Assembly (NCBI RefSeq): GCF_000179915.2
Contig: NC_014963.1
Location: 1,860,001-1,924,000, forward strand
Origin: Terriglobus saanensis SP1PR4
Lineage (GTDB): Bacteria > Acidobacteriota > Terriglobia > Terriglobales > Acidobacteriaceae
DNA: 64,000 nt
Reading direction: 5' to 3'
Position numbers and translations under genes: made by a program. Shown piece by piece: positions 41,715-51,216 of this stretch (its first letter is position 1; each line of letters begins with the position of its first letter). The notes beneath the pieces were generated by a model, which did no database searches, was not told the DNA's origin, and saw only the letters and a program-made list of their open reading frames with translations.

Positions 41715-42344
41715 TTAGGCGAGCTTTGCGAAGCGCATGGAAGCAGAGTTCATGCAGTAGCGCAGCCCCGTCGGGCGAGGTCCATCGTCGAAGACGTGAC
41801 CGAGGTGGGCGGCGCATCGCTTGCAGGAGACTTCCGTCCGCTCCATTCCCAACGTACTGTCCGTCTTCTCTACGACGTTTTCCTTCGCAAGCACCTGCCA
41901 AAAACTCGGCCAGCCAGTGCCGGAGTCGAACTTTGTATCGGAACTGAAGAGCGCCGTATCGCAGCAGATGCAGCGGAATAGACCGCGGTCGTGCAGATCC
42001 CAGGAGTTGCCGGTGTAGGGCCGTTCAGTTCCTTCGTGACGAGCTACCTCATAGGAAATCGAAGACAGTTCATGCTTCCACTCTGCATCGGGTTTGGAAA
42101 CCGTAGGCACTGTGACTTTACCCGTTGGCTTGCCATTCGAGGCAAAATCGATGATGGTGACGGTAGCCGGTAGGGAATCGCGTTTTCCGCCTGCTGCGGC
42201 TGCGATCAGCGGCTTTCGCAGAGACCAAACTGCAAGAGCCCCGACTGCAGCTGCCGAAGTCGCAAGGAACGTGCGACGAGTCTGAATCTTGACTGCGGCC
42301 TCTCTTGATGCCGTTTCTTCAGATTGCTTAAGGAATTCACTCAT
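41715..42344 (-). CDS. msrB: Peptide-methionine (R)-S-oxide reductase, Tat-exported
   Basis: 209 residues. A Tat signal is present (TRRTFLATSAAAVGALAVW, residues 22-40). The MsrB domain (~85-205) has EWKHELSSISYEVARHEGTE, zinc-binding Cys125/Cys128 and Cys174/Cys177, GTGWPSFW, and the catalytic Cys197 in LRYCMNSASMRF. It reduces the R-epimer of methionine sulfoxide in proteins, here outside the cytoplasm. ATG at 42344 has AGAGG seven bases upstream; ATG at 42362 is the alternative. It lies 47 bases after the DipZ-like gene, whose thioredoxin domain would supply reducing equivalents, so the two form a plausible periplasmic repair system. Confidence 0.95.
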   Translation of the reverse strand: MSEFLKQSEETASREAAVKIQTRRTFLATSAAAVGALAVWSLRKPLIAAAAGGKRDSLPATVTIIDFASNGKPTGKVTVPTVSKPDAEWKHELSSISYEVARHEGTERPYTGNSWDLHDRGLFRCICCDTALFSSDTKFDSGTGWPSFWQVLAKENVVEKTDSTLGMERTEVSCKRCAAHLGHVFDDGPRPTGLRYCMNSASMRFAKLA

Positions 42345-42391
42345 GAGTGAACCTCTTTTCATGGATTTAGACGTTCTGGAACGCGCAACGT

Positions 42392-44122
42392 TTAGCCAAA
42401 CGTAAAGGCATAAGCCTGGGCACCGGGTGCCAGAAACTCGATGCGAAAAGTCCGGTCCGTAACCTTCGTTTGCTGCCGAACCAACTGATAGAGCCGGTTT
42501 TCCATGATGATTCCGTAGCCTTCCGCATCGGTATCCATGCCATGGTCCAAACCTGGCGCTTTGTCGTCGATGGTGACGCGGAAACGGATAGGAGCGCCGA
42601 TCTTCATCGATCCGAGAACCAGATGAAGATCTCTCGCATGAAAGCAATAGGAAATGCTGGCACCGGCCACAAGGGATGTCGCAATCTGGCCACCATCGTT
42701 CCACTTACCGGTAAAGCCCCACTGATTCAACTGGAGTGAAGCAGGAAGACGATAAAGCTGCGGATCGTCCTGATTCAAGCCACTGGGCGAAGCGAAGTTC
42801 TGGGCCCGCTCATAACCGACATAGGTTTCGGGAGACTTAACCTCATCTGTATCAGGAGGAGCTTCGGCGCCACTCGCGGCGACGTTTGTGGCGGAACCGG
42901 GGAGTGGTTTGTGGTTGGCCTCTTCCAAGAGCTCTCGGATCCATTTCTCCGATTCGTCGTAGTTGCCTTCCCCGAAGTGATGAAAGCGGATCTTCCCCGT
43001 CGCATCGATGAAGTAATGTGCTGGCCAATACTCGTTGTGGAAGTTCCGCCAAATGCTGTAGTCGTTATCCATTACGACCGGGTAGGTCACGCCGAGGTCA
43101 TGCACCGCTTTGCGGACGTTTGATTCGTCCTTCTCGAACGGGAACTCCGGCGTGTGAACGCCGAGGATGATCAGGCCACTGTCTTTGTACTTTTCATTCC
43201 AGGCTTTGAGGTACGGAAGCGTCCGAAGGCAGTTGATACAGGAGTACGTCCAGAAGTCGACGAGCACAACCTTCCCGCGAAGCGACTCCGGGGTCAGCGG
43301 AGGAGAATTGATCCAGGCAGTCGCTCCAGACAGGCTGGGCAACATAGTCAGTGAACTATCTGAGACCTCGACGGTCTCATTCCTCGTGACTCTTTTGGGG
43401 GCGTTTGCAGGATGGAAGCGGTCAACGAGACGCTGTTCGAGGCCACCTGTACTCGTCAGTGAGAGGCGTGTAAGGACTCCACGATCCAGGCCAAACGCAA
43501 CTGCGACGACGGCTGCCAGAACACCCACGCCCAGGATCCGGCGGATCCATTCTTCCGCACCGAGTGAACGTTTCATCGCCGCGAAGACGCGGCCACCGGC
43601 AAGCAATGCTACCGTCAGCGACGTGGCCGCTCCGGCCGCGTACGCCAAAAGGAGCAGCACCGTATGGGTACTCGCTCCGCCCAAGGCCGCACCCGTGAGG
43701 ATAAGGCCAAGAATCGGTCCCGCGCAGGGTGCCCAAAGTAGCCCAGTCCCAATTCCGAGGACAAACGAGTTCAGGAGCGGAGATGTAGGATCGGAGTTCT
43801 TTGAAATGCGGTTGCCGAACTGAACGAGTGGACGTGAGAACCGGTCCGCAAGTGAAGAAAATAGGAGCGTCAGACCGAAGAATCCAAAGAGAACCAGTGC
43901 CGCAATACGGCCTACCTGATTCGCTCGGACTGCCCAGCCGCCCCCTACGGTCGCAAGGCTGGCGATGAGGGCGAAGGTAACGACCATACCGGCGAGAAGC
44001 GGCAAACCACTCCTGCGAAAAGGCTGATCGGAACGCGCGAAGACAAACGGAAGAACCGGAAGAATACACGGACTCAAAATGGTAAGGACGCCACCCAAGT
44101 ATGCAAGGAAAAGCAAAAGCAT
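42392..44122 (-). CDS. dipZ: DipZ-like protein: CcdA membrane domain fused to thioredoxin-like and C-terminal domains
   Basis: 576 residues. Residues ~1-220 are a CcdA/DsbD-type membrane domain with paired cysteines Cys19 (LSPCILPVLPF) and Cys133 (LLWAPCAGPILG) that carry electrons across the membrane. Residues ~270-400 are a TlpA/AhpC-like thioredoxin domain with Cys295-Ile-Asn-Cys298 in DFWTYSCINCLRTLPYL. The C-terminal ~150 residues form the carbohydrate-binding-like domain usual in DipZ. It would reduce periplasmic partners such as the MsrB encoded downstream. ATG at 44122 is 12 bases from AAGGAG; a GTG at 44131 is only three bases from it, so the start is ambiguous by three residues. Confidence 0.92.
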   Translation of the reverse strand: MLLLFLAYLGGVLTILSPCILPVLPFVFARSDQPFRRSGLPLLAGMVVTFALIASLATVGGGWAVRANQVGRIAALVLFGFFGLTLLFSSLADRFSRPLVQFGNRISKNSDPTSPLLNSFVLGIGTGLLWAPCAGPILGLILTGAALGGASTHTVLLLLAYAAGAATSLTVALLAGGRVFAAMKRSLGAEEWIRRILGVGVLAAVVAVAFGLDRGVLTRLSLTSTGGLEQRLVDRFHPANAPKRVTRNETVEVSDSSLTMLPSLSGATAWINSPPLTPESLRGKVVLVDFWTYSCINCLRTLPYLKAWNEKYKDSGLIILGVHTPEFPFEKDESNVRKAVHDLGVTYPVVMDNDYSIWRNFHNEYWPAHYFIDATGKIRFHHFGEGNYDESEKWIRELLEEANHKPLPGSATNVAASGAEAPPDTDEVKSPETYVGYERAQNFASPSGLNQDDPQLYRLPASLQLNQWGFTGKWNDGGQIATSLVAGASISYCFHARDLHLVLGSMKIGAPIRFRVTIDDKAPGLDHGMDTDAEGYGIIMENRLYQLVRQQTKVTDRTFRIEFLAPGAQAYAFTFG

Positions 44123-44300
44123 AATTCTCACCAACTCCTTCGAAAAACCACAGCCAGCAACATCTGACCCGATGTCATAGCAATGGGACTCGCTGTGTCT
44201 GCAAAGGATACGGATTTGATGAAGTTTTTAGTTCGAACAATTTTCGATTGAGTGATCGACGAAATTGCGGGCGTCCATTCGTTATCTGTCGTCTTCGCGC

Positions 44301-44379: not shown

Positions 44380-45891
44380 TCAAGCTAATCTTTGTTTTTC
44401 TCTGTATTGCCGTATCAGTTTCGAAAGCCGATCGCGAGTCACGGTGTGGCGGTGGGCTTCGGCGAGGTTCGTCAACTCGAACGGGTCTGCGTGCTCATCG
44501 AAGAGCATGCGCCCGTTCTCACCGTTCACACCGAACTCCGCATAACGCCACCGCTCTGTGCGCACTGCCAGCCCGTGTACGGTCTTGCCATCTTCGCTCC
44601 AGAGACTAAACGCTGGTTGGTCCCAGGAGGCCTGGGGATGTTTCAAGAGAGGGCCAAGGCTCGTCCCCTGAAGTCCTGAGTCGGGGGTTTGCAAACCGCA
44701 GAGCTCGACAAGCGTCGGATAGATATCCAGCGACTGCACAATGCGTGTGGAGGTGTGTCCATTTCCCGGGGCTCGTGGGTCGTGAATGATGAGTGGAACG
44801 CGTGTGCCCATTTCAAAGAGGGACCCGGCCTTGGACCATTTCCCCTTTTCGCCCAGTTGGTATCCGTGGTCGGCGACAAGCACGATGATGGTGTTTTCGC
44901 GCAGGCCAAGTGCGTCCAACTCGGCGATGACTCGACCGAGATTCCAGTCAACCCAGGAGATCGATGCCAGGTAGGCTCGGATCACTTCCTTCGCCTCCGC
45001 TCGACTTGCGCCACGGCCGATGAAAAGATCAGCATTCCGCATACGGATGGCGGCCTTTGGGAAACCTGCAGGAACTGTCGGCCATGCGGCGAAATCCGGT
45101 GTGAGTTCCAGTTTCTCAAGATCGTAAAGATCGAAGAAACGTTGCGGCGCAGTAGGCGGGCTGTGGGGCTTTGAGAATCCGCAGCCGATGAAGAAGGGTT
45201 GATCGCGATACTTACGGAGATATTCGATGGCGGTTTCCGCGACGCGATTCTCGGGGTGTCCTTCTCCATTGCCATCGAGTACAAGAATCTGGTCGGAGTG
45301 TGCTGCCTGTTGATTGTCGATGGCCAGAGGCGCGATGACATCTGGAGGAGCAGGCGGGACAGGATAGTTAGGGATGATTTTCTTTTTCTCCACTGGGCTA
45401 GCCTGATGCTCGGTGTTGTCGTTGCCACCACCGACCGTCCACGCAAGCGGATCGTCGTAGATGCCGTGGAAGATTTTTCCGGTGCGGGCTGTGACGTAGC
45501 CCTTCTCGCGGAAAAGCTGGGGCAGGCTTGTGAGATCGGGACGCGTGTCGCGAAAGTTGGTGCGGTTGCCGAGCACACGGGTCTCAAAGGGAACCTGGCC
45601 GGTGAGCAGGGAAGCGCGCGAAGGATTGCAGAGCGGAAACTGGCAGTAGTTGCGATCGAAGCGGACACCGCGTCCAGCCAGTGCATCGATGTTGGGCGTC
45701 TGTGCGTGGAAGTGACTGCCGTAGCAGCCCAACTCCACACGCATGTCGTCGGACATGAGAAAGAGAACGTTGGGGCGTTTGGAAGAGTTAGATAAGGCGC
45801 GGGCGCTGGCTGGAAGCATGCCAGCCAAAGCGGTTCCAGTGGCTTTCGTCAGGAAGTCGCGACGTGAAGAAGCTTTGGAATTTTGTGACAT
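44380..45891 (-). CDS. Sulfatase, iduronate-2-sulfatase-like, Tat-exported
   Basis: 503-residue type I sulfatase, hydrolysing sulfate esters outside the cytoplasm. A Tat signal (SSRRDFLTKATG) opens it. The catalytic Cys88 in CNPSRASLLTG would be converted to formylglycine; metal ligands appear as Asp48/Asp49 (LMSDDM) and later as VADHGYQLGEKGKWSK. ARTGKIFHG and FIGCGFSKPHSPP are features of the iduronate-2-sulfatase branch. ATG at 45891 has GGAG six bases upstream. It is second in an operon with a TonB-dependent receptor (67-base gap), implying import of a sulfated polymer or oligomer. No formylglycine-generating enzyme is in the window. Confidence 0.94.
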   Translation of the reverse strand: MSQNSKASSRRDFLTKATGTALAGMLPASARALSNSSKRPNVLFLMSDDMRVELGCYGSHFHAQTPNIDALAGRGVRFDRNYCQFPLCNPSRASLLTGQVPFETRVLGNRTNFRDTRPDLTSLPQLFREKGYVTARTGKIFHGIYDDPLAWTVGGGNDNTEHQASPVEKKKIIPNYPVPPAPPDVIAPLAIDNQQAAHSDQILVLDGNGEGHPENRVAETAIEYLRKYRDQPFFIGCGFSKPHSPPTAPQRFFDLYDLEKLELTPDFAAWPTVPAGFPKAAIRMRNADLFIGRGASRAEAKEVIRAYLASISWVDWNLGRVIAELDALGLRENTIIVLVADHGYQLGEKGKWSKAGSLFEMGTRVPLIIHDPRAPGNGHTSTRIVQSLDIYPTLVELCGLQTPDSGLQGTSLGPLLKHPQASWDQPAFSLWSEDGKTVHGLAVRTERWRYAEFGVNGENGRMLFDEHADPFELTNLAEAHRHTVTRDRLSKLIRQYREKQRLA

Positions 45892-45958
45892 AGGTCGCTC
45901 CAATTTTTAAACAGGACGTGTATACCGCCGCGAAGGTTTCCTTGCGCGGCGGCAGAGG

Positions 45959-48900
45959 TTAGAACACGAAGCGTGCACCGATCTGCAGTTGACGCGCAGC
46001 GTATGCCGATGTGATCGTTCCGAAGGTCGAACTGCCGTACGTGGCCGACGGGGTGGTCAGGTTGGTGTGGTTGAGGGCGTTGAAGACCTCTCCACGAAGC
46101 TGCAGAGCGCGGCCTTCGCCAAAGCTGACCGCTCGAATCAAAGAGAAATCCAGTGTGGCAAAGCCGGGTCCGCGGAGGCTGTTGCGACGCTGTGTGCCAA
46201 AGCTGAAGGTGGCAGGCTGCGCGAAGGCTGCGGCGTTGAGCCACTGTTGACTTGGTCCACGCTGTCCGCTGGAAACATAGGGATCGCCGACAATGTTTGC
46301 CCGCTGAGAACCAGAGGAGAATGAGTTTGTGTTGTTGGTGTTCGTAGTGACCGTAAACGGCGCGGCGGAGTAAGCGCGAGTGACGTTGCCGATTGTCCAG
46401 CCGCCAACCGCGTGAGCGAGAACTCCGTGGTTCAGGAAGGCGCGTTGCGGACCAAAGGGAAGTTCGTAGACGCTGGAGAATACTAATTGGTGGCGAATGT
46501 CGTTTGAGGATGGGCCGTAGTCGGAAGCGCGATCGTAGTAGTTTGAGTAAGCTCCCCCATCTGCACCAAAAGAAGAACCACCTTCGAAGGAGTTATTGAG
46601 AAATTTCGAGTAGGTATACGTTGTGTTCAAGTTGAAGCCATTGCGGAATCGGCGGCTGATCCGCACCATTCCCGCGTAGTAGTTGGAGTCGCTGTTTGTG
46701 GGGACAACCACGGAGACGTTGCCAAATTGCGGGAAAGGACGGTCCTTCTGCGAGCTATGTGCCGCGCTCAGGATCGCAGGGTTGATCTGGTTGATTTGCT
46801 GCGTCGCACCTGCAAGTTTATGGGCCACACTGCCGAGGCCGGAGACTTCGAGCACGAACTGCGTGGGGAGACGCTGCTGGATATCCAGATTGAACTGGGT
46901 GGTGTACCCGGTGCGCTTCTTGGTATCGAAGTAGCTGACGGCTGTCGTGGCCGCGGCTCCCACGGCAACCGCTCCGAAGCTGTCATTGAGTGGTGCTCCT
47001 GCGTTGGAGACATTGGGAACGCCGTTGGCCAGCAAGAAGGGTGCTGTGATGCCGTTGTCCGGAGTGTTGAGGGATTCGGAGAGGCTGTAACCCAAGGTTG
47101 CTGCATTGGGCTGGCCCGAATCAAAGGGATGCGCGAAGAAAACACCGGCACCTCCGCGTACGACTGTGGAGCCAGCTCCAAAGGGCTGATAGGAGAAGCC
47201 GAACCGCGGAGCGAAGTTGTTGTAGTCGCCGTTGTACGGAGTCGTGCGGTATCCGTTGATGCCGAGAAACTTGACCACGCCGGGTGTGCCAGAGACAGGG
47301 TTGATCGCTGTGGCGTCGAAGCTGTTCATGCGGTTGCTTTCGTCTTTGATCGGTGTGTCAGTTTCCCAGCGCACGCCGAGGTTCAGTGTGAGCTTCGGCG
47401 TGATATTCCAATCGTCTTGCAGGAAACCAGCCAGGTACCAGCTCACACGTGAGATGGGTTCGGTCTGTGCCGCACTGAAGGCGCTAGGAAAGCCGACGAG
47501 GAGAGACGCAAGACCGTTTCCGGTGCTGGTATTTCCTGGAAGACCTGTTGGCTGTGTAGCGAAGGTAAAGGCGCCTGAGGCAGTCGAAAGACTGACTTCG
47601 TGATCCATGGATCGCCTGACTTCGACACCGTATTTGAGCGTATGGCGGCCAAGATTTTGTGAGAGGTTATCGACCAGCTGGTAGACCGTGACCGGGTATT
47701 GCTGGCGTTCCTGCGAGTTGCTGCCGAGGGGACTGAAGCCCGCTGGTGCGAAGTAAGGGAAGGCGTTTGAAGAGACTCCGTTGAGTCCAAGTGACGTTGG
47801 AAATTTACCGACACCGTCCGCGTACTGGTGAAAGACACGGACGTCGTAGAGGAAGCGGAGATCGTTCACGACGGTCGGCGAAAACGTGTGCGTGTACTGT
47901 GCATAGCCGATGTCGTCGGTGGAGGTGCTGTTGGTTGTGGGATCGGCGGCGGGGAAGGGATAGACGGAGTTGTTGTCGGTGACGCCGTCGGAGTGGATAT
48001 AGCGAAGGGCGAGACGATCCTTATTGCTGATGACGTGATCGACGCGAGCAAGATAGAACTGCGTATTATTGCTGCTTACATCGTTGGCGCGGAAATTGTT
48101 AGCACCAGCGACGTTATCCGGCGTGCGATTCGCTAACGGGTAAAACTGCATCAGCGCGGCTGCGACTGGGTCGAGCGCTGTAATACGGTTTCCAGCGAAT
48201 TGGGTTCGTGTGGTCACGCCGTTCACGGTCTTTGTGGTGGAAGGATCGTAGATCGGGATGAGCTTGCCCGCGGCCGTGAAGGTCTGGGAGAAGTCTCCCG
48301 CGCGCTGCAGCAGTGTGGGTACGGTCAGAGTGACGGTCGAACCCGTTCGCTGACGCCCACCCTCAAAGCCAAAAAAGAAGAAGGTGCGGTCGCGGCGGAT
48401 TGGTCCTCCTACGGTTACGCCATAGATGTTGTAGCGGAGCTCTGGCTTACTCTTGCTTCCGTCTGCGTTGGTTCCGGCGAAGTATCCAGGCGCATCAAAA
48501 GCGTCGTTGCGCAGGAACTCGTAGGCTGAGCCATGGAATCGGTTCGTGCCGGATTTTGTAGTCTGGATCACAATGCCGCCAGCAGAGCCGCCGAACTCTG
48601 CGCCGTAGTTATTGCTGATGATGCCGATCTCCTGCACCGTATCGACCGGGGGGCTGACCTCTGCGGTTCCAATGCCGATGCGTATGTTCTGGCCAGAGCC
48701 GCCATCGAGCCACGTCATGGAACTCTTCGTCCGTCCGCCGGAGAGGCTGTAGTTTGCGGAGTCGATAAACACAGCGCCTCCTGTGAGAGCTACGATATTC
48801 ATCGAAGTTCGGTTGCCGAGCGGAAGTTCAGAGACGCTCTTGGACTCGATGGTCTGACCGATGGACGAAGTGCGGGTATCCAGTTCCGGCGCGCTTCCTG

Positions 48901-49321
48901 TCACGTTCACGCTCTGCTCTACGGTGCCAGCTGCGAGCTTTGCATCGACACCGAGTACCTGATCGGTGGAAAGCGTGAGACCGGTGCGGCGGTAAACCCC
49001 GAAGCCTTCGCGTTCCACCATGACCGCGTAAGTTCCCACGTTCAGCGCGGGTACGTTGTACTTACCGGCCTCGTTCGTAGTGGTGTCGATGGTGACGCCC
49101 GTGGCGGTGTTCGTTACGTGAACGATTGCACCTGGAATGATGGCGCCTTGTGTATCGGTAATGATTCCGTTGATAGTTCCCTGCGTCGATTGCGAAAGAG
49201 CGCGCTGAGGGAGCAATAAAAGTCCGAAGAGCAATCCCAGGGATAGAGCGGACACGGAAGAAAGAGAGAAGCGGAAGCGTGATGGCGAGATATTCAAGGG
49301 AAACCTTTCGAATGATTCCAT
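45959..49321 (-). CDS. TonB-dependent receptor, Oar-like, sulfatase-linked
   Basis: 1120-residue outer-membrane receptor. A hydrophobic signal (LSLGLLFGLLLLPQRALS) precedes the regulatory-like sandwich (GTINGIITDTQGAIIPGAIV, VPALNVGTYAVMVEREGFGV). The plug has LPLGNRTSMNIVALTGGAV and the barrel ends in IGARFVF. The start is uncertain: ATG at 49321 and ATG at 49384 lack ribosome sites, whereas TTG at 49297 has AAAGG six bases upstream and gives a shorter, more typical signal peptide. It heads an operon with the iduronate-type sulfatase. A 32-residue mini-ORF with five Cys codons lies immediately upstream (49418-49516), a candidate leader controlling this operon. Confidence 0.9.
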   Translation of the reverse strand: MESFERFPLNISPSRFRFSLSSVSALSLGLLFGLLLLPQRALSQSTQGTINGIITDTQGAIIPGAIVHVTNTATGVTIDTTTNEAGKYNVPALNVGTYAVMVEREGFGVYRRTGLTLSTDQVLGVDAKLAAGTVEQSVNVTGSAPELDTRTSSIGQTIESKSVSELPLGNRTSMNIVALTGGAVFIDSANYSLSGGRTKSSMTWLDGGSGQNIRIGIGTAEVSPPVDTVQEIGIISNNYGAEFGGSAGGIVIQTTKSGTNRFHGSAYEFLRNDAFDAPGYFAGTNADGSKSKPELRYNIYGVTVGGPIRRDRTFFFFGFEGGRQRTGSTVTLTVPTLLQRAGDFSQTFTAAGKLIPIYDPSTTKTVNGVTTRTQFAGNRITALDPVAAALMQFYPLANRTPDNVAGANNFRANDVSSNNTQFYLARVDHVISNKDRLALRYIHSDGVTDNNSVYPFPAADPTTNSTSTDDIGYAQYTHTFSPTVVNDLRFLYDVRVFHQYADGVGKFPTSLGLNGVSSNAFPYFAPAGFSPLGSNSQERQQYPVTVYQLVDNLSQNLGRHTLKYGVEVRRSMDHEVSLSTASGAFTFATQPTGLPGNTSTGNGLASLLVGFPSAFSAAQTEPISRVSWYLAGFLQDDWNITPKLTLNLGVRWETDTPIKDESNRMNSFDATAINPVSGTPGVVKFLGINGYRTTPYNGDYNNFAPRFGFSYQPFGAGSTVVRGGAGVFFAHPFDSGQPNAATLGYSLSESLNTPDNGITAPFLLANGVPNVSNAGAPLNDSFGAVAVGAAATTAVSYFDTKKRTGYTTQFNLDIQQRLPTQFVLEVSGLGSVAHKLAGATQQINQINPAILSAAHSSQKDRPFPQFGNVSVVVPTNSDSNYYAGMVRISRRFRNGFNLNTTYTYSKFLNNSFEGGSSFGADGGAYSNYYDRASDYGPSSNDIRHQLVFSSVYELPFGPQRAFLNHGVLAHAVGGWTIGNVTRAYSAAPFTVTTNTNNTNSFSSGSQRANIVGDPYVSSGQRGPSQQWLNAAAFAQPATFSFGTQRRNSLRGPGFATLDFSLIRAVSFGEGRALQLRGEVFNALNHTNLTTPSATYGSSTFGTITSAYAARQLQIGARFVF

Positions 49322-49417
49322 GCCAATGCAAAGCTGCCTGGCGAAAAGGATCAGAGTTGAAGCGCGCAAAAACTTGCTTCGCATAGAGCGAGAGCAAACT
49401 TAAAAATTGTCAGGAAG

Positions 49418-49543: not shown

Positions 49544-50959
49544 TTATGCGGGATCGGGATATTCCACGGAAGCTTTGTGGGTTTCGCGAATGTGCTGTTC
49601 GATGCGAGAGACAATCTCAGGATGTTGCGAGGCGACGTCAACAGTCTCTGCGGGATCGGTATTGAGGTTGTAGAGCTCCAGCGGACCGCCTCGTCCGTGA
49701 CGGACCGCCTTCCACTGTCCCCAGCGCACGGCCTGTTCGAAGCTCGGTTCGTAGAACTCCCAATACAGAAAACGATCTGTCGCCTTGCGGTTTGGGTGGA
49801 GAAGATACGGCTTCAGGCTGATGCCGTCGGAGTGTTGCGGCGCGGCTCCTGCCAGGTCGAGCGCGGTGGGTACGAAGTCCGGGAAGAAGACAGGAACGTC
49901 GGTCGTGTGGGCAGCAGGGATGTGACCCGGCCAGCGGGCAATGAGAGGATCGCGGATACCGCCTTCGTACATATCGCGCTTATAGCCATGCAGCGGTCCA
50001 TTCGAGTCGAAGAAGTTGATGACCTTGGTCTGTTCGGGTGTGGGTTCGGAACGTGGTCCATTGTCCGAGGCAAAGAACACGATGGTTTCATCGTCCAGGC
50101 CAGATGCTTTGAGGGTCTCCAGAATTTGGCCCACGCCGTTATCGAGATGTTCGATCATGGACGCATAGGTCTTTTCATCTTCGTCCCAAGGCTCGTTCGC
50201 ATACGAACCAAGATCGGGCGCTAGATACGGACTGTGCGGCGCATCGTAGGCCACGTAGAGGAAAAAAGGCTCGGCAGCGTGGCTCTTAATGAAGTCCACG
50301 GCATCCTCGGTAACGATGGTCGTTCCGTAAAGGCCTTGCTTGCCACCAGCATTCTCAGGCAGGTCGATCAACGTCTCGTTGTGGTAACGCTGTTCGGGGA
50401 AGTAACCCTGTGTGCTTCCCGTCTGGGTAAGCCAACCCTTGAACGTTTGGAATCCGTGACGTGTCGGAATGGCCCCAGGGTCATAGCCGTCGAGGTGCCA
50501 CTTGCCCATGAGCGCTGTGGCATAACCGCCCTTGGCAAGATAGTCGGCAATCGTGCGGTCGTCTTCGATGAGACTTGCCCGGCGAATCACTTCCTTGCCC
50601 TTATGACCGACATGACCTCCGGCAAGAGCGAAGTTATCACGCACACGCGTGTGGCCGGTGTTGAGACCAGTCATCAGCACGCTGCGAGACGGTGCGCATA
50701 CGGGAGCACCCGCATACGCCTGCGTAAAGCGCAGACCTTCAGACGCTAGGCGATCAATGTGTGGGGTACGAAACTTCTTTTGCCCATAGACGCTGGTGTC
50801 GCCGTAGCCCATGTCGTCGGCAAGGATGAAAACAATATTGGGCCGACGGCGCGACGCCGTTGTCTTGCCTTGGGCATCGACTGCGATTGCTGCGATCGAG
50901 GTCGCTGCAATCGCAGTCCAGAGGAAGTTTCGGCGGGTAAGGTTTTGTTTGCTATCCAC
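49544..50959 (-). CDS. Sulfatase (arylsulfatase-like), Tat-exported
   Basis: 471-residue type I sulfatase. The Tat motif is LTRRNFLWTA (8-17). Catalytic Cys88 is in CAPSRSVLMTG, the classic C-x-P-S-R site for formylglycine; metal ligands include Asp48/Asp49 in FILADDMGYGD and FFASDNGPRSE. Other family motifs are ALMGKWHLDGYD and FFLYVAYDAPHSPY. It belongs to the arylsulfatase/N-acetylgalactosamine-6-sulfatase-like branch; the substrate is not determinable. The start is GTG at 50959 because a stop precedes it in frame; the ribosome site is poor. Upstream are an intrinsic terminator and a Cys-rich leader ORF, suggesting attenuation control. Confidence 0.94.
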   Translation of the reverse strand: MDSKQNLTRRNFLWTAIAATSIAAIAVDAQGKTTASRRRPNIVFILADDMGYGDTSVYGQKKFRTPHIDRLASEGLRFTQAYAGAPVCAPSRSVLMTGLNTGHTRVRDNFALAGGHVGHKGKEVIRRASLIEDDRTIADYLAKGGYATALMGKWHLDGYDPGAIPTRHGFQTFKGWLTQTGSTQGYFPEQRYHNETLIDLPENAGGKQGLYGTTIVTEDAVDFIKSHAAEPFFLYVAYDAPHSPYLAPDLGSYANEPWDEDEKTYASMIEHLDNGVGQILETLKASGLDDETIVFFASDNGPRSEPTPEQTKVINFFDSNGPLHGYKRDMYEGGIRDPLIARWPGHIPAAHTTDVPVFFPDFVPTALDLAGAAPQHSDGISLKPYLLHPNRKATDRFLYWEFYEPSFEQAVRWGQWKAVRHGRGGPLELYNLNTDPAETVDVASQHPEIVSRIEQHIRETHKASVEYPDPA

Positions 50960-51025
50960 GGATCAGGCCCAACATTTCCTTGGCTATGAGGAAAGAACCT
51001 CAGCAAAAGCTTATGTGGGCACGTC

Positions 51026-51057
51026 CGAAAACAACAAAGCCCACGAATTCGTGGGCT
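51026..51057 (-). terminator. Intrinsic terminator (attenuator) between Cys leader ORF and sulfatase
   Basis: AGCCCACG-AATT-CGTGGGCT (51038-51057) is a perfect dyad forming an eight-pair stem with a four-base loop; on the minus strand it is followed by TTTGTTGTTTTC. It begins 25 bases past the stop of the leader ORF and ends about 78 bases before the sulfatase start. It is also ~350 bases past the PHP gene stop, too far to be that gene's normal terminator. Confidence 0.7.
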
Positions 51058-51082
51058 CAAAGCATTATCTGGAAAAGAACCG

Positions 51083-51178
51083 TTAGCTACAGTCTTCAAG
51101 ACAAAGCATATTCGCGCCACGTTCCTGCACAGAGTGACAACAACAGAGTTTCGGCGCGAGTTGATAGAGCTTTTTCAT
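51083..51178 (-). CDS. Cysteine-rich leader peptide, candidate attenuator ORF
   Basis: A 31-codon frame beginning MKKLYQLAPKLCCCHS and ending LCLEDCS has five Cys codons, three of them consecutive (TGT x3 at 51145-51137). Its ATG lies ten bases after a -10-like TATTTT, so the transcript would be nearly leaderless; no ribosome site is present or needed. A seven-pair inverted repeat (TCGCGCC 51159-51153 with GGCGCGA 51118-51112, minus strand) encloses the Cys codons. A terminator hairpin follows 25 bases past the stop, then the sulfatase gene. This is the arrangement of amino-acid attenuators: stalling at Cys codons would free the second arm and could prevent termination. The function is inferred. 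Confidence 0.6.
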   Translation of the reverse strand: MKKLYQLAPKLCCCHSVQERGANMLCLEDCS

Positions 51179-51188
51179 GCAATAACTA

Positions 51189-51216
51189 AAAATAACACAG
51201 AGTGCATCCATGTCAA
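51189..51216 (-). promoter_or_regulatory. Promoter for the Cys leader ORF and sulfatase
   Basis: On the minus strand TTGACA (51216-51211) and TATTTT (51194-51189) are separated by 16 bases. The predicted start point is within a few bases of the leader ATG at 51178. Confidence 0.6.

Follow-up and report, generated by a model that had tools for sequence, protein, structure and literature searches.

A putative cysteine-responsive attenuator upstream of a sulfatase gene in Terriglobus saanensis and its counterparts in related Acidobacteriaceae

Introduction

In transcription attenuators of the trp/his type, the leader peptide contains codons for the end product, the transcript has segments that pair as 1:2, 2:3, and 3:4, and an intrinsic terminator is present. 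The leader that we describe here, upstream of a sulfatase gene of the acidobacterium Terriglobus saanensis, resembles them in its end-product codons, its 1:2, 2:3, and 3:4 segments, and its intrinsic terminator, and differs in that cysteine would be sensed, probably almost no 5′ leader precedes the ORF, and scavenging genes are among the targets. Cysteine-dependent attenuation, either classic or Rho-dependent, was reportedly proposed before PF00480/PF14340 genes in work by Lyubetsky et al. from 2014. That system reportedly also has a Cys-codon leader, but its downstream genes differ.

Among cysteine leaders described in other phyla, the leaderless polycysteine ORFs of mycobacteria are presented as cysteine-responsive attenuators that act on translation (PMC9031893, PMC13236596; Canestrari et al. 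2020). They share with our leader contiguous Cys codons in a short ORF and a position upstream of sulfur/cysteine genes; that our ORF, like theirs, begins close to the transcript 5′ end and senses cysteine supply is inferred. They differ in being translational controls, whereas here we find an intrinsic terminator and a covarying antiterminator, in another phylum and with sulfatase/transporter-like targets. The mycobacterial trait of translational control without an intrinsic terminator is not shared by the sulfatase leader, which has both terminator and antiterminator; the acidobacterial cysD leaders described below, which show no terminator, look closer to the mycobacterial ORFs. The candidate cys leader peptides of Actinobacteria are likewise short ORFs with a Cys run, located upstream of cys operons or of cbs; their authors detected no conserved hairpin and proposed Rho (Seliverstov et al. 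2005, PMC1262725). Their Cys run lies near the stop codon, whereas in the present leader the stop follows 60 nt downstream of the first Cys codon, and in place of the missing hairpin we find a conserved terminator and antiterminator.

The principle is therefore known, from trp-type attenuation and mycobacterial polycysteine leaders. What appears to be new is the phylum, the complete terminator/antiterminator, the probably near-leaderless ORF, and the sulfatase-transporter targets, a claim of novelty that the 2014 proposal limits. Our literature search, which left most subscription journals outside its scope, found no cysteine attenuator in acidobacteria, and no model for sulfur-shortage sensing in these bacteria was found either.

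Results

A Cys-codon leader precedes the sulfatase gene

The window, i.e., the whole 64,000-nt stretch of the T. saanensis genome that was analyzed, was the subject of an earlier note, which had proposed a candidate cysteine-responsive attenuator. Its description of the parts, all on the minus strand, is largely borne out by the DNA (Table 1). The two promoter-like boxes are 16 nt apart, with an ATG ten bases past the second; it opens a 31-codon ORF with three consecutive Cys codons, which are enclosed by an inverted repeat, and a hairpin with a T-rich tract follows before the GTG of the sulfatase. Two details had to be corrected. The CGTGG motif (51121-51117) exists, but rather than adjoining the second arm of the inverted repeat it overlaps that arm by two bases. 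It can indeed pair with CCACG of the terminator, but the antiterminator is longer than had been claimed, with seven pairs and one bulged base between CGTGG-c-GC (51121-51114) and GC-CCACG (51056-51050).

Table 1. Features of the leader and of the genes behind it (positions in the window)
Feature	Position	Strand	Remarks
-35-like box TTGACA	51211..51216	-	TTGAC part recurs across leaders
-10-like box TATTTT	51189..51194	-	letters not conserved in relatives
Leader ORF MKKLYQLAPKLCCCHSVQERGANMLCLEDCS	51083..51178	-	31 codons plus stop
TGT TGT TGT, three Cys codons	51137..51145	-	proposed stall site
Segment 1, TCGCGCC	51153..51159	-	paired in the full-length fold with the complementary GGCGCGA (51118-51112)
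Segment 2, CGTGGCGCGA	51112..51121	-	antiterminator strand (51121-51114) and partner of segment 1
Segment 3, GCCCACG	51050..51056	-	pairs with segment 2, or with segment 4 as the terminator 5′ arm
Terminator hairpin (segments 3 and 4)	51037..51058	-	nine pairs including an outer G-U, loop of 4
T-rich tract TGTTGTTTTC	51027..51036	-	directly after the hairpin
Sulfatase (PF00884, SGSH_C)	49544..50959	-	GTG start at 50959
TonB-dependent-receptor-like outer-membrane beta barrel (PF25183, CarboxypepD_reg)	45959..49384	-	PF00593 below cut-off
Second sulfatase (PF00884)	44380..45903	-	

The whole leader folds better than each of 200 dinucleotide shuffles (z -3.86). Taken alone, the promoter scan (1 found, 1.0 expected in shuffles) and the terminator scan (1 found, 1.5 expected) are at chance level. 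Rfam gave no credible match at the leader, the sole match being below the gathering score, on the opposite strand, and inside the sulfatase gene, and four leader peptides each hit 0 families among NCBIfam leader peptide models at E values up to 0.1, which is weak evidence for such very short queries.

The TonB-dependent-receptor-like gene probably belongs to the sulfatase operon, and membership of the second sulfatase, on the same strand, is inferred. Pfam was run on eight proteins only, and many gene names at the loci of relatives were read from sequence. Just downstream of the second sulfatase, on the same strand, lie a SelR methionine sulfoxide reductase and a DsbD/thioredoxin-like gene (41715-44134).

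The element recurs at part of the orthologous sulfatases

Orthologs of the sulfatase (E≤1e-130) were detected in 16 of 398 family genomes, taken as Acidobacteriaceae, at 17 places, 16 of which are testable once a place at a contig edge (G012) is excluded. The element is present at six of these, in the window and in G005, G351, G380, G169, and G392, with a shared layout of TTGAC box, start codon, Cys-codon run, GTGG-N-GC, terminator GCCCAC...GTGGGC, and T tract. In that order, the leader peptides are MKKLYQLAPKLCCCHSVQERGANMLCLEDCS, VILVAKTFYCFIEGTPCCCLRPPVVR, MKRSVQFATSSCCRIATQLPCGADVFCRLAKN (which has only CC), MRARNSFQMKAQLCCCNATQSCGAIGILSA (counted from a start codon 39 nt upstream of the Cys run), MRPSFQNLCCCLSCIPGGHRVTQTSFLI, and MINTLKQLCCGCCRKHFAVRVVCPELIQV; they differ apart from Cys, and the spacing of Cys varies. 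Since the element recurs in related genomes, a chance origin of the leader is disfavored. In one of these genomes (G392, L057), the Cys leader and terminator stand before an interrupted sulfatase frame, with one TGA and a match from residue 160 on.

At the other ten testable places the element is absent (G011, with two copies, G002, G017, G015, G107, G273, G292, G319, and G395), so that having the sulfatase gene does not by itself imply having the leader. The earlier note had set as its check that Cys codons, hairpins, and their spacing be conserved; the element is present in five other orthologs and missing at ten of the 16 places. In seven of nine leaderless loci examined, an ORF of 80 codons or more on the strand of the sulfatase ends no farther than 137 nt from it; in five of six loci with a leader, the nearest such ORF ends 215-696 nt away. 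These distances are compatible with, though only suggestive of, retention of the leader at sulfatases that start a transcript of their own. We also observed that one G011 contig (C1) has three pairs of equal sulfatase matches ~460.5 kb apart (2390263/2850780, 2641407/3101927, and 2648959/3109479), reflecting either a long repeat or an artifact of the assembly.

The antiterminator covaries in the sulfatase/transporter class

An intrinsic terminator, i.e., a hairpin with a T-rich tract, lies between the leader and the first gene in the window and at the other sulfatase/transporter leaders. When the leader RNA lying 3′ of a ribosome placed at the Cys codons was folded without the terminator 3′ arm and what follows it, the antiterminator GTGG-N-GC:GC-CCAC was the predicted structure in all eight leaders (in G169 without the bulge), and the terminator appears in the full-length fold of each. 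Since an arm of any sequence will find partners, shuffled spacers served as the control for 5′-arm occlusion. For the 13 leaders of the sulfatase/transporter class, occlusion amounts to 0.84 versus 0.52 for the shuffles, with 8/13 at p≤0.05; the combined P of 1e-7 is too small because the sequences are related. Neither the window antiterminator alone (0.77 versus 0.58, p 0.134) nor the reductase class described below (17 leaders, 0.60 versus 0.52, combined P 0.064) reaches significance. The 13 include the divergent G169 leader, for which the wrong stem was taken (p 0.25, uninformative); G040, without a terminator, was dropped (17 of 18 left), and G196, nearly identical to G268, was omitted from this and the following test.

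The outer antiterminator pair is variously C-G, U-A, A-U, or G-C, and it is formed in nine of 12 leaders, where 3.0 would be expected (P 0.0005 by permutation; 0.0012 when G236 is left out; 0.0035 when G169 is left out as well), the remaining three being mismatched. Over ten segments joined together, pairing holds in 95.7% of cells (12/500 shuffles reach this), the covariation score is 0.222 (1/500 shuffles; 0.000-0.056 when slid), and six cells are changed on both sides (3/500). The number of pairs with a change on both sides (83/500) and that of further pair types (116/500) are not outstanding. Together, these alignments demonstrate a covarying pair and indicate that, in the sulfatase/transporter class, antiterminator pairing is kept by compensatory changes.

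A covariance model leads to Cys leaders before other sulfur genes

Pattern searches were of limited use. The pattern TGTTGTTGT-gap-CGTGGYG matched in 12 of 61 genomes, with leaders only in the window and in G005 among seven loci inspected. A gapped pattern ending in GCCCAC matched at least 136 of 398 genomes, mostly as noise, and two of eight stretches picked by eye among the matches listed are leaders. One (G412) precedes a TonB-dependent-receptor-like gene, and the other (G292) a sulfatase resembling the second sulfatase of the window, followed by a TonB-dependent-receptor-like gene. A scan of 169 records (920 kb), which included 80 loci among the matches listed, mostly from other phyla, revealed no convincing Cys leader outside Acidobacteriaceae sulfatase loci.

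We built a covariance model, R1, from six leaders, none of them from a reductase; two alignments (A2 and A3), misaligned at segment 2, were excluded from it. A search of the 398 genomes with R1 (E≤0.1) returned 26 places, spread over 24 genomes; six of these places are the training leaders, and 14 of the 20 others are Cys leaders before sulfur genes. Five of these precede sulfatase or transporter-like genes (G268, G236, G196, G211, and G224). The other nine precede a NirA/SirA-type siroheme reductase, with peptides such as MTARVCCMCCCDATRCRICAAQES, MSNACRTCCYISVRCCLCPFRGLTQ, and MCCACCCNAARACVCPATDPVI; their E-values are weak (8.6e-4 to 0.08), and they convince because of the downstream gene and the Cys content, not the E-values. 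Three of the nine (L200, L203, and L210) were read by eye, the Cys scan having returned nothing there.

The six matches that remain (L198, L202, L204, L205, L207, and L211) look like terminators only. Two of them, L204 and L211 in G143, are strong terminators directly before frames that by eye resemble proC (pyrroline-5-carboxylate reductase), and this proC-like gene is possibly another leader-controlled gene. In G169, a further Cys leader, MHKKSFHLCCQHDRQGDAGLRDSV or a form extended by three residues (L056:3216-3332, plus strand, R1 E 0.02), points in the opposite direction and precedes a second sulfatase-like gene.

In the T. saanensis genome itself, the best R1 match is the window leader (6e-21) and the second is a reductase leader (E 0.08; G000:C1:2024705-2024831, seen in L224 and L242), with the peptide MNFYAEVMGATNVRCCCVCLGFARSFERVWN followed by a hairpin and a T-rich tract. 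The reductase has domains PF01077/PF03460, and its best NCBIfam model, below cut-off, is the NirA family; its substrate is inferred to be sulfite, and the gene behind it was read as a siroheme-synthesis methyltransferase. A third Cys leader of this genome, MRNALQHACCRCLCCKSR, precedes cysD (L252:6798-6854; G000:C1:4399797), where a scan for intrinsic terminators found none.

These parallel Cys leaders were observed well above background in a control scan for short ORFs with at least three Cys in five codons within ~400 nt upstream. They occur at 16 of 27 reductase loci, versus 23/940 other stretches of the same loci and 36/1080 dinucleotide shuffles, three of 30 loci being left out for too little upstream sequence. 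For cysD the count is 17 of 28, versus 28/823 other stretches and 39/1120 shuffles, and includes one leader (L280) and perhaps another (L267) that look chance-like. In both counts, loci of close relatives are not independent.

Proposed mechanism and alternatives

We propose that the leader is a transcription attenuator of the classical four-segment kind, mediated by the ribosome and responsive to cysteine, a reading that is well supported by comparison and to which we give a probability of roughly 84% in the absence of transcript, ribosome, or expression data. Transcription would begin at or a few bases before the leader ATG. With sufficient Cys-tRNA, the ribosome would pass the three Cys codons, segment 2 would be covered or paired with segment 1, and segments 3 and 4 would form the terminator, so that transcription stops ahead of the sulfatase gene. 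Under cysteine shortage, a ribosome stalled on the Cys codons would cover segment 1, and segment 2 (CGTGG-c-GC) could pair with segment 3 (GCCCACG), allowing polymerase to continue through the sulfatase and transporter genes and probably that of the second sulfatase as well, by which sulfate may be gathered from sulfate esters. The start, the stalling, the termination, and the response to cysteine are all inferred.

The Cys codons could also sense cysteine with control falling on sulfatase translation or on Rho, the hairpin being merely accessory. Such arrangements have been put forward elsewhere, translation attenuation for mycobacterial polycysteine leaders (PMC13236596, PMC9031893) and Rho for the actinobacterial ones (PMC1262725), and the cysD leader of T. 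saanensis shows no intrinsic terminator in our scan. Against this stands the retention, at sulfatase/transporter leaders, of a terminator with T tract together with a covarying antiterminator, and we consider such control unlikely here. That the recurring Cys residues belong to a peptide sensing a metal or an oxidant, rather than to a gauge of charged Cys-tRNA, is more doubtful still. Cys-rich upstream ORFs are linked to copper genes in other bacteria. A copper-sensing nascent peptide has been described (PMC9973294). However, the genes downstream are sulfatases, transporter-like genes, siroheme reductase, and cysD, and the peptides have little in common but Cys, at varying spacing.

The least credible reading is that a promoter-like site and an ordinary terminator happen to flank a random Cys-containing ORF. 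It can draw on the chance-level scans and on the ten of 16 orthologous places without the element, but recurrence, covariation, and the fact that R1 led from the window leader to further Cys-codon leaders upstream of different sulfur genes all oppose it, and the comparisons made speak strongly against it. Ribosome-mediated transcription attenuation is our preferred reading.

The Cys leaders before sulfur genes suggest that they switch on sulfur uptake at cysteine shortage. We are evenly divided on the broader proposal of an Acidobacteriaceae sulfur regulon, in which near-leaderless Cys-codon leaders before cysD, NirA/SirA-type reductase, and sulfatases with TonB-dependent-receptor-like transporters would use two sensor forms, with and without an intrinsic terminator and antiterminator. 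If this regulon is true, leaderless polycysteine sensing either arose separately in Actinobacteria and Acidobacteriota or is ancient. Attenuation of this kind would explain how acidobacteria, which are common in soils, may sense sulfur shortage, and would connect cysteine supply with the sulfatases and the transporters of the outer membrane. It would help in guessing substrates, since a sulfur compound is the probable cargo of any transporter encoded behind a Cys leader. It would also provide a terminator and antiterminator of a sort not found at actinobacterial cysteine leaders (PMC1262725).

Promoter spacing suggests a probably near-leaderless ORF

In all 14 leaders, a start codon follows TTGAC at a distance of 34-41 nt, although seven of them offered more than one in-frame start to choose from. 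This spacing would place the start codon between about -1 and +6 relative to the expected transcript, from which we infer, without a transcript map, that the ORF is probably near-leaderless. A TTGAC-gap-CysCysCys pattern occurs at 35 of 246 loci, 30 of them at leaders, with several loci showing the same place. At some loci (L002, L052, L171, L191, L192, and L195), GAGAAC/GAGAAA, often as ATGAGAACTT, recurs 15-16 nt after TTGAC instead of a TATAAT-like -10 box, and is possibly a promoter type of these bacteria.
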